NCBI GenBank assembly: GCA_018883755.1
Contig: JAHLFR010000007.1
Span: 1-64,000 of the forward strand
DNA from: Candidatus Methanocorpusculum faecipullorum
GTDB lineage: Archaea > Halobacteriota > Methanomicrobia > Methanomicrobiales > Methanocorpusculaceae
Length of the DNA stretch: 64,000 nucleotides
Direction of reading: 5' to 3'
Position numbers and translations under genes: made by a program. This document shows, in pieces, positions 13,858 through 17,281 of the stretch. Within the stretch, counting starts at the first letter, position 1, and every line of letters starts with the position of its first letter. Under the pieces are notes generated by a model that saw only the letters and a program-made list of their open reading frames with translations, was not told the DNA's origin and made no database searches.

Positions 13858-13881
13858 TCAGGGCTTAGCATCCCACTATGT

Positions 13882-13898
13882 ATGTTTTCTGTAAACAT
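13882..13898. promoter_or_regulatory. Second inverted repeat between PaaK operon and small membrane gene
   Basis: ATGTTT-5 nt-AAACAT, about 90 bp upstream of the ligase start and a similar distance before the plus-strand small membrane gene, so it could serve either direction. Confidence 0.35.
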
Positions 13899-13986
13899 AA
13901 GGATTATCATAAGCAGACAGGATCTCTCCGATCAATTCTTCCAAAACTAAAAGTAAGGTTATTAGGATTCACGGGCAATATGGTGT

Positions 13987-14166
13987 ATGGACAAAACAGG
14001 TCTTGCAACTCTGATCCTTGGTATTGTTCTACTAATTGCCGGTGTTATTCTGATGTGGTACTGGCTGCCTCAGTTTATTCAGGTTCTGCTTGGCGGTATT
14101 GGAATCGTTCTTGCAGTTGCCGGTCTTTGTGGAATTGTGCTTGGGTACTTAATGATCAAAGAATAA
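13987..14166 (+). CDS. Small two-helix membrane protein (59 aa)
   Basis: Begins MDKTGLATLILGIVLLIAG and ends GYLMIKE. Two hydrophobic helices (about 6-24 and 31-55) are separated by a short WYWLPQF hinge. Glycine-rich helices and the lack of other motifs leave its function open. It lies 11 nt before the glycosylase gene on the same strand, with a T7 run between them, so it may be a separate transcript. The reading frame is open, of membrane-protein composition and out of frame with any neighbour, which supports it as a real gene. Confidence 0.6.
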   Translation: MDKTGLATLILGIVLLIAGVILMWYWLPQFIQVLLGGIGIVLAVAGLCGIVLGYLMIKE

Positions 14167-14177
14167 CCTCTTTTTTT

Positions 14178-15029
14178 ATGCAGACATTTCCGCTTGATGG
14201 ACGTTGGTTTAACCTGGAATTAAGCGTATCCTGTGGCCAGGCGTTTCGATGGAGAAAATACGGTAACACCTGGTATGCTCCATCTCCCTATGGAGAAAAC
14301 GTAGTCTGGAAAATACAGCAGGAAAAGGATCTTCTCAGATATGATGGAATGAGTGAGAGAGAACTTATCCACTACTTTTCACTGGATCATAATCTTGCCG
14401 GAATCTTATCCAGTATTGATCGCGATCCGCTGATTCATGATGCAACATCCCGATGGCGAGGGTTACGAATTATGCGCCAAGATCCCTGGGAGTGTCTCAT
14501 ATCCTATATCTGCTCCAGCTGTGCCAACATCCCTGGGATTCAAATGAGAATAGAAAATCTTGCTAAGAAGTACGGCACGAAGATTGTTTGTGACAACAAA
14601 CCATTTTACTCATTCCCTTCGCCCGAGACAATCGCAGATGCCCCCGTTTGTGACATTCGAACCTGCAAGGTTGGTTACCGAGACACATATATTTGCAAGG
14701 CAGCAGCAATGGCATCAGAAAACCCATCATGGCAGACGAATATACGCGACCTTCCCTATCTTGAGGCACAAAAAAAACTCCGTGAACTGGATGGAGTCGG
14801 ACCAAAGGTTGCGGATTGTGTGCTGTTGTTTGCGTTTGAAAAATTAGAGGCAGTACCCGTTGATGTCTGGATAGAACGAATCCTGCGTACCAAATATCTT
14901 GGCGGAGAAAAGAAACTTGCCTATGCAAAAGCAGGGGCATATGCACGTGAACATTTTGGGATGTTTGCCGGATATGCACAGGAATATCTGTTTGCATCCC
15001 GCGAACTCATCAGCAGAAAAGGAGAATAA
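14178..15029 (+). CDS. 8-oxoguanine DNA glycosylase, OGG1 type
   Basis: 283 residues. The N-terminal OGG-type domain starts MQTFPLDGRWFNLELSVSCG with the GQAFRW signature. The HhH-GPD module LRELDGVGPKVADCVLLFAF carries the expected catalytic lysine (GPK) and is followed by PVDVWIERIL with the conserved aspartate. The enzyme excises 8-oxoguanine from DNA and nicks by beta-elimination. ATG at 14178 is the natural start because the reading frame upstream overlaps the small membrane gene. A possible 27-codon frame starts 4 nt after its stop. Confidence 0.9.
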   Translation: MQTFPLDGRWFNLELSVSCGQAFRWRKYGNTWYAPSPYGENVVWKIQQEKDLLRYDGMSERELIHYFSLDHNLAGILSSIDRDPLIHDATSRWRGLRIMRQDPWECLISYICSSCANIPGIQMRIENLAKKYGTKIVCDNKPFYSFPSPETIADAPVCDIRTCKVGYRDTYICKAAAMASENPSWQTNIRDLPYLEAQKKLRELDGVGPKVADCVLLFAFEKLEAVPVDVWIERILRTKYLGGEKKLAYAKAGAYAREHFGMFAGYAQEYLFASRELISRKGE

Positions 15030-15116: not shown

Positions 15117-15407
15117 TCTTGTGATATCAGAAAGCCTGTCCTACAGAAAAACAGATCTGTTGGCCAATTCGTCCGACAAAACATGACTCCCCATCATGTT
15201 TGGTCCAGGAATACAGACTTTTTTTATATCCGTGGACTTGCGGAAACATCTTTTCTGTTGGGCAGACTTTTTTCCGTCACCGGAGAGTAAATGGAAAAAT
15301 TCTGAAATACACCAGTTTCCCTCCGCAATGCCTTGCCTGGAAGAATTATTCTTTTTCCCTTTGCAACAGACGATCGGGACGAATAACTATCTTTTGACTA
15401 TGCAAAT
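15117..15407. other. Non-coding stretch before the RHH/coiled-coil gene
   Basis: About 290 bp without a convincing gene. Frames of 65 to 115 codons cross it but their residues look random and they run into the following gene in another phase. The segment is AT-rich toward its end, where the direct and inverted repeats begin. Confidence 0.5.
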
Positions 15408-15452
15408 TATACCTATTGACTATCCATATACTTATACCTATCCATTAGGATA
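15408..15452. promoter_or_regulatory. Direct and inverted repeats upstream of the RHH/coiled-coil gene
   Basis: TATACCTAT occurs at 15408-15416 and 15433-15441; CTATCCAT occurs at 15420-15427 and 15438-15445. TATCC-ATTA-GGATA forms an inverted repeat at 15439-15452, ending 11 bp before the ATG. This repeated, operator-like layout suits autoregulation by the adjacent putative DNA-binding protein. Confidence 0.45.
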
Positions 15453-15463
15453 CCTGTTATCTA

Positions 15464-15895
15464 ATGACGGGCAGTCCCCGGAAACGTCCACCAGATCAGA
15501 TGAACTTGCGGCTCGGTGCCAGTTTCATTCAGAAATTCAATAAGTACATGGAAGGACGGCAGGAGACAAAAGTCCATTTTATCCGTGCTGCAATGGAGTA
15601 CTGGATGTCTGTGGATGGGGACATCGAGAAAATTGCTGAGAGACTAAAGCAGGCAGAACAGGTCATTGCACTTCAGCAGGAAAGAATCGATGAACTCCGT
15701 ACATTTCAGGAACGGTGCATTGCGTACCAGCGTGAGATCATCGAAGAAAAAAACAAAAGAATCCAATACCTTACAGACCAGCTGAAAAAGAGCCCTAAAG
15801 CAGACATATATTATCCCGAAAATCTTCTTGAAGAGCCGACCGTCGCCGAGCCGGAGCCTGCATACCAAAACCAAGATGCGCCTACTGAAAAATAA
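15464..15895 (+). CDS. Putative ribbon-helix-helix/coiled-coil regulator
   Basis: 143 residues. The stretch about 13-48 (MNLRLGASFIQKFNKYMEG, then TKVHFIRAAMEYWM) has the strand-helix-helix spacing of ribbon-helix-helix DNA-binding domains. Residues about 55-105 form a long heptad-rich coiled coil full of Glu, Gln, Lys and Arg, and the tail is acidic and proline-rich. No named family is recognised. ATG at 15464 lacks a ribosome site; ATG at 15500 would start right at the RHH-like segment. Repeats immediately upstream suggest autoregulation. It converges on srp54. Confidence 0.6.
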   Translation: MTGSPRKRPPDQMNLRLGASFIQKFNKYMEGRQETKVHFIRAAMEYWMSVDGDIEKIAERLKQAEQVIALQQERIDELRTFQERCIAYQREIIEEKNKRIQYLTDQLKKSPKADIYYPENLLEEPTVAEPEPAYQNQDAPTEK

Positions 15896-15925: not shown

Positions 15926-17281
15926 TTACATAGGACCCATTGGGCCCATGCCGCCGAGATCTCCGCCGCCTTTACTCATCTGTTTCATCATCTTGTTCAT
16001 CGCCATCCGGTTTCCGCGGAAACCTTTCAGCGTTTTTTGCATCATCTTGTAGTATTTGATAAGCTCTCGAACCTCATCAACAGAAGAACCAGATCCTTTT
16101 GCGACTCTGGTCATCCGTGATGTATTGATCAGCGAGGGATCATCAAGCTCTTGGGGCGTCATCGAGTCCATAATGATGCGGAACCGTTTCATCCTATCAG
16201 CAGTACCATCCAGAGCTTCAGAGGGAACATTCAACCCGCCAAGCGGCAGCATGGAAAGGACCTGTTTTAACGGCCCCATCTTCTGCACTGCTTCAAGCTG
16301 CTTGTACATATCATTCAGCGTGAACTTACCCCGCAGCATTGCGTTGACATCCACATCCTCCGGCTTGATGGCTTCTTCGGCCTTTTCAACAAGTGCTTTC
16401 AGATCGCCCATGCCAAGCAGACGGGAGATGAACCCATTTGCATCAAACCGCTCCAGATCCTCGATCGTTTCACCATTACCGATGAACACGATTCCAGACT
16501 CGGTCTCGGAAACCGCAGACATGGCACCTCCACCTTTTGCCGTACCATCCATTTTGGTAACGATCACACCATCAATACCGATAGCCTCATGGAACCGCTT
16601 CGCCTGCTCGCGTGCAGCCTGTCCCAGTGCTGCATCAATCACCAGCCAGCGGTGATCCGGTTTGAGCAGATCATTGATCTGCATAATCTCTTCAATGAGA
16701 TCATCCTCCAATGCATGACGACCGGCCGTATCCACAATAATAACTTCGACATCCTTGAGTGCCGCAAGACCGTCACGGGTAATCTTCACCGCGTCTTTCT
16801 CATTGGGATCACCATAACAGGGAACATTGATCTTTTTGCACAGAGTTTCCAACTGTGCATAGGCACCAGGCCGGAAATTATCTGCACCTATTGCTCCAAC
16901 TTTCAGTCCTTTTCGCTGGAAGTAACGACAAAGTTTTCCGGTTGTTGTTGTTTTACCAGAACCCTGAAGACCTGCCATCAAAATTTTTTGGGGACGCAGG
17001 CTGAACTCTGCCTCCTTACCGACGAGGTTGACCAACTCCTGATACACAATCCGCAGTACATGTTCGCGGACATTCATTCCCTTGGGAAGATCCTCGTCCA
17101 ACGCCCGCGACTTAATCGACTGTGACAACTGCATCACAAGTTTCACATTCACATCCGCAGACAACAGGGCACGCTGAAGATCACGAACCAACTCATCCAC
17201 TGCTGCACGATCAATAACCGTCTTCCCGGCAAGTTTCTTCATCGCATCCTTGAGCGAATTGGAAAGATTATCAAGTCCCAT
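15926..17281 (-). CDS. srp54: Signal recognition particle 54 kDa protein
   Basis: 451 residues in the usual order: N domain (1-85), G domain with [10 protein letters not shown] near 106-115, DTAGRH and [12 protein letters not shown], then a methionine-rich M domain (about 300-430) that binds signal peptides and 7S RNA. The C-terminus is an unusually long Gly-Met tail. It targets membrane and secreted proteins co-translationally with FtsY. The ATG shares one base with the ftsY stop (TAATG), so the GTPase pair is translationally coupled. Confidence 0.97.

Follow-up and report, generated by a model that had tools for sequence, protein, structure and literature searches.

In the 64,000-nucleotide stretch analyzed here (the window), which belongs to an archaeal genome of 1.25 Mb that is about 80% complete, the ORF list and translation place the gene P0001 at positions 15464-15895 of the plus strand, encoding 143 amino acids. 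The gene has orthologs (orthogroup 'a') and paralogs (other letters), described below. On its 5' side lies a plus-strand gene for an OGG_N/HhH-GPD glycosylase (ogg, 13878-15029), and on its 3' side the convergent, minus-strand gene for SRP54 (15926-17281), both assigned by Pfam. An earlier note, made from the letters alone, had described a 143-residue ORF preceded by repeats, and both were confirmed, the repeats being located upstream of the ORF. No conserved divergent neighbor was found among the compared 'a' loci; upstream of 'a', the first gene of any size runs in the same direction (ogg in the window), and in some species short ORFs on either strand lie between. In G007 (L074), two additional genes separate ogg from the 'a' gene, and one of these is related to the Cache lipoprotein that faces the d-type regulator of G004. 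The glycosylase is a single frame in the window, and in G004, G021 and G017 its N-terminal 100 residues are in a frame other than the remainder, so that the start or a frameshift differs among species. Between ogg and P0001, a partly conserved segment (15120-15285, plus strand) may be closed by a stem (AAGUCUGUC/GGCAGACUU) and contains a hairpin whose loop carries an invariant CCC core; its RNAalifold covariation term was slightly unfavorable (0.64), no Rfam match was found, and that it is an RNA is only a guess.

P0001 is very likely a divergent ribbon-helix-helix (RHH) protein joined to a coiled coil, as judged through its family. Codons 9 to 52 (15488-15619) comprise the domain and, after it, the family-invariant Trp47 and Gly52. 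P0001 alone matched no RHH model in Pfam. Among 15 family rows, 6 matched RHH_1 at an E value of ≤0.1 (best 9.6e-8) and 8 matched a PHROG of transcriptional repressors (best 3.6e-5); none of the 11 j-p paralogs matched RHH_1 at an E value of ≤0.001. Profiles were then restricted to the N terminus, so that the coiled coils cannot contribute. A profile of five 'a' and two 'b' members matched the c-h paralogs, several of which match RHH_1, at an E value of 1.1e-12 (probability 97.8); j-p matched c-h at 1.6e-14 and 'a'/'b' matched j-p at 2.6e-6. The RHH-like N terminus proposed in the earlier note is thereby supported. Against the PDB, the 'a'/'b' N-terminal profile found no RHH chain, the c-h N termini found one chain, the antitoxin EndoAI (E value of 0.011), and the other profile searches returned mostly weak coiled-coil matches and a few weak RHH chains with E values of 0.08 or more.

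The predicted DNA-reading ribbon, QMNLRLG at codons 12 to 18 (15497-15517), was delimited from alignments, with its contact positions set by analogy with Arc. It shows the alternating polar residues of the RHH superfamily (Q12-x-N14-x-R16), which every one of the six intact 'a' orthologs retains; 'b' likewise retains N and R. Codons 54 to 109 (15623-15790) form a long helix or coiled coil near the end of which I100 and L103 are invariant in 15 of 15 aligned family rows, and codons 110 to 143 (15791-15892) a Glu/Pro-rich tail of low pLDDT that is probably disordered. AlphaFold2 was run twice on the monomer, with an input of one row and of three rows, and such models neither prove nor disprove an RHH fold. 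The first run gave helices at 12-28 and 33-109, and the second at 12-29, 36-49 and 54-109 with block pLDDT values of 93 to 97 across residues 61-100. The fold prediction called for at the N terminus yielded the helices from residue 33 or 36 on, while in both runs the ribbon at 12-18 was modeled as helix rather than strand. The long coiled coil and acidic tail that had been described agree with the models (a long helix to residue 109 and a low-confidence, Glu/Pro-rich tail). The earlier idea that the combination is peculiar to P0001 is not supported, since 36 such genes were analyzed.

Relatives of P0001 were found in 12 of 61 genomes searched, all of the same genus. A 15-member profile matched in 14 of 25 genus genomes at an E value of ≤1e-3 and, among 199 genomes of the order at ≤1e-6, in 12 genus genomes and one other, G103. 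A search across the phylum (392 genomes) gave matches at ≤1e-5 in 14 that do not belong to the genus (best 7e-7). Eleven of these matches span just the N-terminal 40 to 47 positions and mostly belong to longer frames, which is what a common RHH domain would produce. The family is thus nearly confined to one genus, and P0001 is an orphan within it. An intact 'a' gene was found in 6 of the 25 genus genomes, some of which are incomplete. From 45 profile rows 35 were kept, which with G103 make up the set of 36: 6 'a' members, 29 others and G001:C176, which is at a contig end and was excluded from the head-to-head counts and the tree. The rows set aside were other RHH types (G019:C3, G017:C4, G022 and G006:C14), weak matches with E values above 4e-4 (G019:C2, G019:C5 and G017:C6), the decayed G015 copy and both halves of the G021 'a' gene, which is split by a frameshift. 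P0001 had no match in plasmid and phage records, and a viral origin was rejected when three scans of viral contigs gave none that was confirmed. The own genome contains one clear paralog (G000:C26:2147-2503, L002), head-to-head with the gene of a DUF4352 secreted protein, and the same regulator/DUF4352 pairing is also present in another genus (L079).

Upstream of P0001, a putative operator/promoter element was delimited from a six-ortholog alignment at 15393-15445 on the plus strand, which corresponds to -71 to -19 from the start codon. The alignment comprised the intact-frame 'a' orthologs of G000, G004, G007, G001 (cut by the contig end), G019 and G017, which share invariant runs of 15 bases (15393-15407) and 32 bases (15414-15445). 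The element holds two copies of each of three plus-strand repeats. TATACCTAT occurs at 15408-15416, a copy that varies among orthologs, and at 15433-15441, within the invariant 32 bp; CTATCCAT occurs at 15420-15427 and 15438-15445; and TTGACTAT, unmentioned in the earlier note, occurs at 15394-15401 and 15416-15423. From the end of the last repeat to the ATG there are 18 bp rather than about 11 bp as had been stated. Such repeats are not rare in themselves, 8-mer direct repeats 8 to 40 nt apart amounting to 82 pairs per 64 kb. The pattern CTATNNAT-N4..14-CTATNNAT occurs once in the window versus 0.06 expected, a pattern composed after viewing the sequence. When the proposed check of repeat conservation was made, the 32 bp and 15 bp were invariant in the six orthologs while the first TATACCTAT copy varied. 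P0001 therefore has a conserved operator-like element at its own promoter, as an autorepressor would, and the autoregulatory layout suggested earlier holds to that extent.

The conservation of this element is far beyond chance. The five full-length 'a' proteins are 39 to 74% identical over ten pairs. Between the two 'a' subclades, third codon positions agree at 0.29 to 0.43, and the 72 bp before the ATG agree at 0.88 to 0.89. SRP54 next door is 96 to 98% identical in the five other 'a' loci in which nearly its full length aligns (a G012 piece is 87% identical), which indicates fast evolution of the protein but not of the element. When the entire upstream region served as blastn query, G017, G019 and G015 matched over only the last 60 to 78 bp. 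A 23-bp core of the element was present as one copy in each of 8 of the 25 genus genomes, always at the 'a' promoter, versus no matches of a reversed-pattern control in the 25 genomes. In two of these eight the gene is broken, and there the core has 3 differences (frameshifted gene of G021) and 2 differences (decayed gene of G015); it was not found at the decayed copy of G012.

Searching the own genome for the core with up to 3 mismatches returned its own promoter only and no second full site. The genome search for clusters of the repeat, also proposed earlier, accordingly found a single site per genome and no cluster, and a genome-wide regulon was rejected on the same grounds, the core being at a single place in each of the 8 genomes. 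The element was not seen at the promoters of the paralogs (at least 13 mismatches). Paired CTATCCAT with up to 2 mismatches occurred at 23 places, 8 of them 'a' promoters, versus 19 in a reversed control. Away from 'a' promoters, exact CTATCCAT pairs occurred only once each in G002 and G018, in which no 'a' gene was found, and these were considered as targets of 'a' and taken as unrelated. These pairs, of the form CTATCCAT-N10-CTATCCAT, are at the related loci L088 (1501-1526) and L089, near genes that by eye resemble secreted-protein and tail-like genes.

The arrangement of the other family members was examined with ORF starts, and hence distances, that are approximate. Of 29 non-'a' members with upstream sequence, 27 have a divergent ORF start within 400 bp, and G000b has a DUF4352 protein opposite it at a distance of about 300 bp, giving 28 of 29 head-to-head; for 26 the distance is within 250 bp. 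The remaining member, G021m, faces an opposite-strand GT2 frame that contains an in-frame TAG. To count as a partner, an ORF needed a length of 60 aa or more and a position within 400 bp, even with a small ORF between (G004m). As a heuristic background, the nearest ORFs with 100 aa or more were taken from seven stretches that include 'a' loci; 54 of 142 were divergent, 28 of 142 within 250 bp. Fisher tests gave p values of 1e-9 (divergent) and 1e-12 (within 250 bp), which overstate independence because orthologs were counted separately among the 29.

By Pfam, 19 of the 29 partners are glycan- or envelope-type enzymes: GT2 (five, one with the TAG), PMT_2 (three), Acyl_transf_3 (three), FkbM (two), TylF (two), hexapeptide transferases (two), core-2 branching (one) and UbiA (one). 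Three are secreted proteins or lipoproteins (DUF4352 twice and Cache once), and two belong to restriction-modification, a type ISP enzyme and an MmeI-like methylase just below the Pfam cut-off. The other five have no clear class, namely, three of group c (G007c unscanned), G008i and G017f, the last with a weak zinc-ribbon match. GT2 matches numbered 71 in ten genomes, and the p values for the GT2 and acyltransferase partners assumed 16,000 genes in ten genomes. Judging from the family names, the partner enzymes probably act on the cell surface. The c-type regulator of three genomes (L034, L046 and L055) has opposite it a conserved protein about 350 aa long; that protein has no Pfam match in the two scanned and by eye resembles a membrane-anchored SGNH/AlgJ-type envelope enzyme.

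Comparison of the upstream regions revealed that the motif class follows the ribbon class at fixed distances. The 'a' motif was located at -50 in 6 of 6 'a' members. All nine c/d/f/h members carry YTTKACCWARNMTAAT at -41 to -44 (the three of group c with 2 mismatches), and all ten j/k/l/n/p members carry TRTAAGYNATTNNCTTAC at -78 to -81, never with more than 1 mismatch. Since the motifs were derived from the sequences later scored, only the fixed position and class specificity give independent support. In shuffled upstream regions, matches with at most 1 mismatch arose in 0.14% for YTTKACCWARNMTAAT and 0% for TRTAAGYNATTNNCTTAC, and a further 3.6% had 2 mismatches to YTTKACCWARNMTAAT. Group e has YTTKACCWARNMTAAT with 2 mismatches at -43. 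None of the three motifs was found at its class position with fewer than 3 mismatches in b, g, i, m, G000b or G103; in G004m, the opposite strand carries YTTKACCWARNMTAAT at -107 with 2 mismatches. Across the 25 genomes, the TRTAAGYNATTNNCTTAC-type motif with up to 3 mismatches occurred at 13 separate places versus 1 for the reversed control. Nine of these are family promoters (2 at the 3-mismatch limit), with G009n missed, and the other 4 are all at that limit. In the tree, which drew a long-branch warning from the program, i and m fall with j-p in a supported group (97/97). Groups c/d/f/h form one group (88/81) only if five unlabeled rows (e, two g, G000b and G103) are passed over, and 'a' and 'b' are jointly supported at 100/100, with 'a' alone unresolved as a clade.

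The facing genes were compared in 11 locus pairs, for which Blast edges are approximate, and differed in 4. These were n in G002/G009 (PglD-like versus core-2 branching), n in G002/G008 (two hexapeptide transferases whose DNA does not align), j in G007/G021 (PMT_2 versus TylF) and b in G007/G004 (UbiA versus GT2). Both flanks were shared around different partners in two pairs only. For n in G002/G009, identity was 96% outside and then 93% from -83 through +1776; for j in G007/G021, it was 94% outside and then 91% from -84 to +406. Elsewhere, the homologous facing gene of the g pair differs in its promoter-near part, the break in the f and m pairs is mostly intergenic, and the TylF genes of j/l (G021/G018) are related. 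Three pairs (k/p, j in G007/G004 and j in G007/G001) had no break. In the eight pairs with a break, homology resumes 71 to 124 bp before the regulator ATG, and in the j-p class at -81 to -86, which is at the motif or immediately beyond it. The family may tentatively be viewed as an operator-anchored exchange system, a reading we regard as possible but rather doubtful. The regulator and its private operator would stay fixed at the site, and the facing gene would be swapped between species by recombination bounded inside by the operator; P0001 would then be an orphan that lost its cargo and kept its operator. The homology edge could also be explained by selection on the regulator promoter alone.

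The gene, its family, the element and its conservation, the head-to-head layout, the motif classes and the differing partners are observations, and we propose from them that P0001 is an RHH transcription regulator and most likely a repressor of its own promoter, acting through the putative element at 15393-15445 (probability of about 0.7). Two P0001 chains would form an RHH dimer whose ribbon residues Q12, N14 and R16 are predicted to read the CTAT-type boxes of the element, and the long coil would probably join dimers into a larger complex across the direct repeats. The archaeal TBP, TFB and RNA polymerase are expected to assemble at about -71 to -19, where the element lies, so occupancy by P0001 would block transcription and set its own level. 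By analogy, the head-to-head members of the family would be local switches of the facing gene. Since the orphan P0001 has no conserved divergent neighbor, a second target, if any, would be in trans, reached perhaps via weaker sites or by mixing with paralogs through the coil. Against the proposed reading, the element could be a core promoter instead of an operator, and an autorepressor without another target serves no obvious purpose.

In an extension of the autorepressor reading that we consider a real possibility, if the lesser one, the conserved site would be only the best among several, with P0001 acting at further promoters too or forming mixed coils with paralogs. The missing divergent partner speaks for it, and mixed coils are thinkable given that I100 and L103 are invariant in all 15 rows. 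Against it, the own genome has no second 23-bp core at up to 3 mismatches, and the exact CTATCCAT pairs off 'a' promoters are confined to the two genomes in which 'a' was not found. Moreover, at an E value of ≤1e-6, G019 has besides 'a' only a stop-interrupted match to another RHH type, so 'a' is not simply the master of the other members. It appears unlikely that the frozen element instead serves as core promoter, encodes a 5' leader RNA or extends P0001 at its N terminus. TATA-like stretches do occur within it, and the frame upstream of the ATG is open in 5 of the 6 intact orthologs. TATA and BRE alone, however, should not require 32 and 15 invariant bases, and the sequence is absent from the paralogs' promoters at the mismatch level given above. 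An N-terminal extension is blocked by an in-frame TAG in the window, and every position of the would-be frame is invariant over the 32 bp. An RNA element was likewise rejected, the folding z-score (0.11) being no better than that of shuffles, with no Rfam match at gathering thresholds.

Many type II antitoxins are RHH proteins, and the sole PDB chain found with the c-h N termini, EndoAI, is an antitoxin. We nevertheless consider it highly improbable, more so than any other alternative, that P0001 is the antitoxin of a type II pair: its window neighbors by Pfam are ogg and the convergent SRP54 and nothing toxin-like, PADLOC gave no match to P0001, and a long coil stands in place of a short toxin-binding tail. 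The earlier note had also offered an architectural or partition-like role, which would involve spreading over DNA by means of the coil. A coil together with direct repeats would suit such a role, and plasmid-maintenance RHH proteins, ParG and Omega, are named in passages of PMC4175270. With one site per genome and no cluster, an intact gene in only 6 of 25 genus genomes (some incomplete), no ParA-type gene beside P0001 in the window, where it sits between ogg and SRP54, and no match in plasmid or phage records or viral contigs, this role is very unlikely, and most relatives are laid out as local regulators.

RHH autorepressors are already known, and P0001 would be a known fold in a new lineage-specific variant. 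Like the Arc/CopG (MetJ-Arc) proteins, it has a probable RHH domain by family profile, a Q-x-N-x-R ribbon and direct repeats before its own gene; passages of PMC12645479 give the DNA contacts of Arc as Gln9, Asn11 and Arg13. It differs from them in its long C-terminal coiled coil and acidic tail, in being archaeal and nearly restricted to one genus and in matching no RHH model when taken alone. TraM is an RHH protein with a C-terminal oligomerization part, of the same type as MobC. For MobC of RA3, the relevant part of PMC4175270 describes an N-terminal RHH that binds the operator of its own promoter and a C terminus that stabilizes oligomers, an arrangement like the one proposed here for P0001. 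Unlike these two, P0001 has no relaxase or conjugation gene among the window neighbors scanned and no plasmid match. aCcr1 of the Sulfolobales is likewise an archaeal RHH regulator, and 4 of 15 family rows resemble it in NCBIfam at an E value of ≤0.1; the best value (0.0066) is not significant, and aCcr1 is not known to have a coil. In Bacteroides, UpxY and UpxZ are locus-specific regulators of surface polysaccharide loci, with one paralog per locus. The head-to-head relatives of P0001 similarly appear as one paralogous regulator per surface-glycan locus, but the proteins are unrelated, and any cross-regulation within the RHH-coil family is hypothetical. In a mostly title-level survey of literature on archaeal RHH/CopG proteins, surface glycans and Methanocorpusculum, no description of the family was found. 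PMC10035134 reports an enrichment of GT families 2, 39 and 83 in Methanocorpusculum species from marsupials, and the words CopG and ribbon are absent from its main text.

If the proposed reading is true, methanogens of this genus would control single surface-glycan and restriction genes by a multiplied set of RHH-coil proteins with subfamily-specific operators, and those genes would be exchanged beside the operator. If the exchange reading is true as well, incoming surface-glycan or defense genes would fall at once under the local switch. The pairs of operator and ribbon would be a ready set on how RHH ribbons choose their DNA. The family would then be an archaeal counterpart of bacterial surface-locus switching and would offer a way to study how methanogens vary the surface that they present to host and virus.
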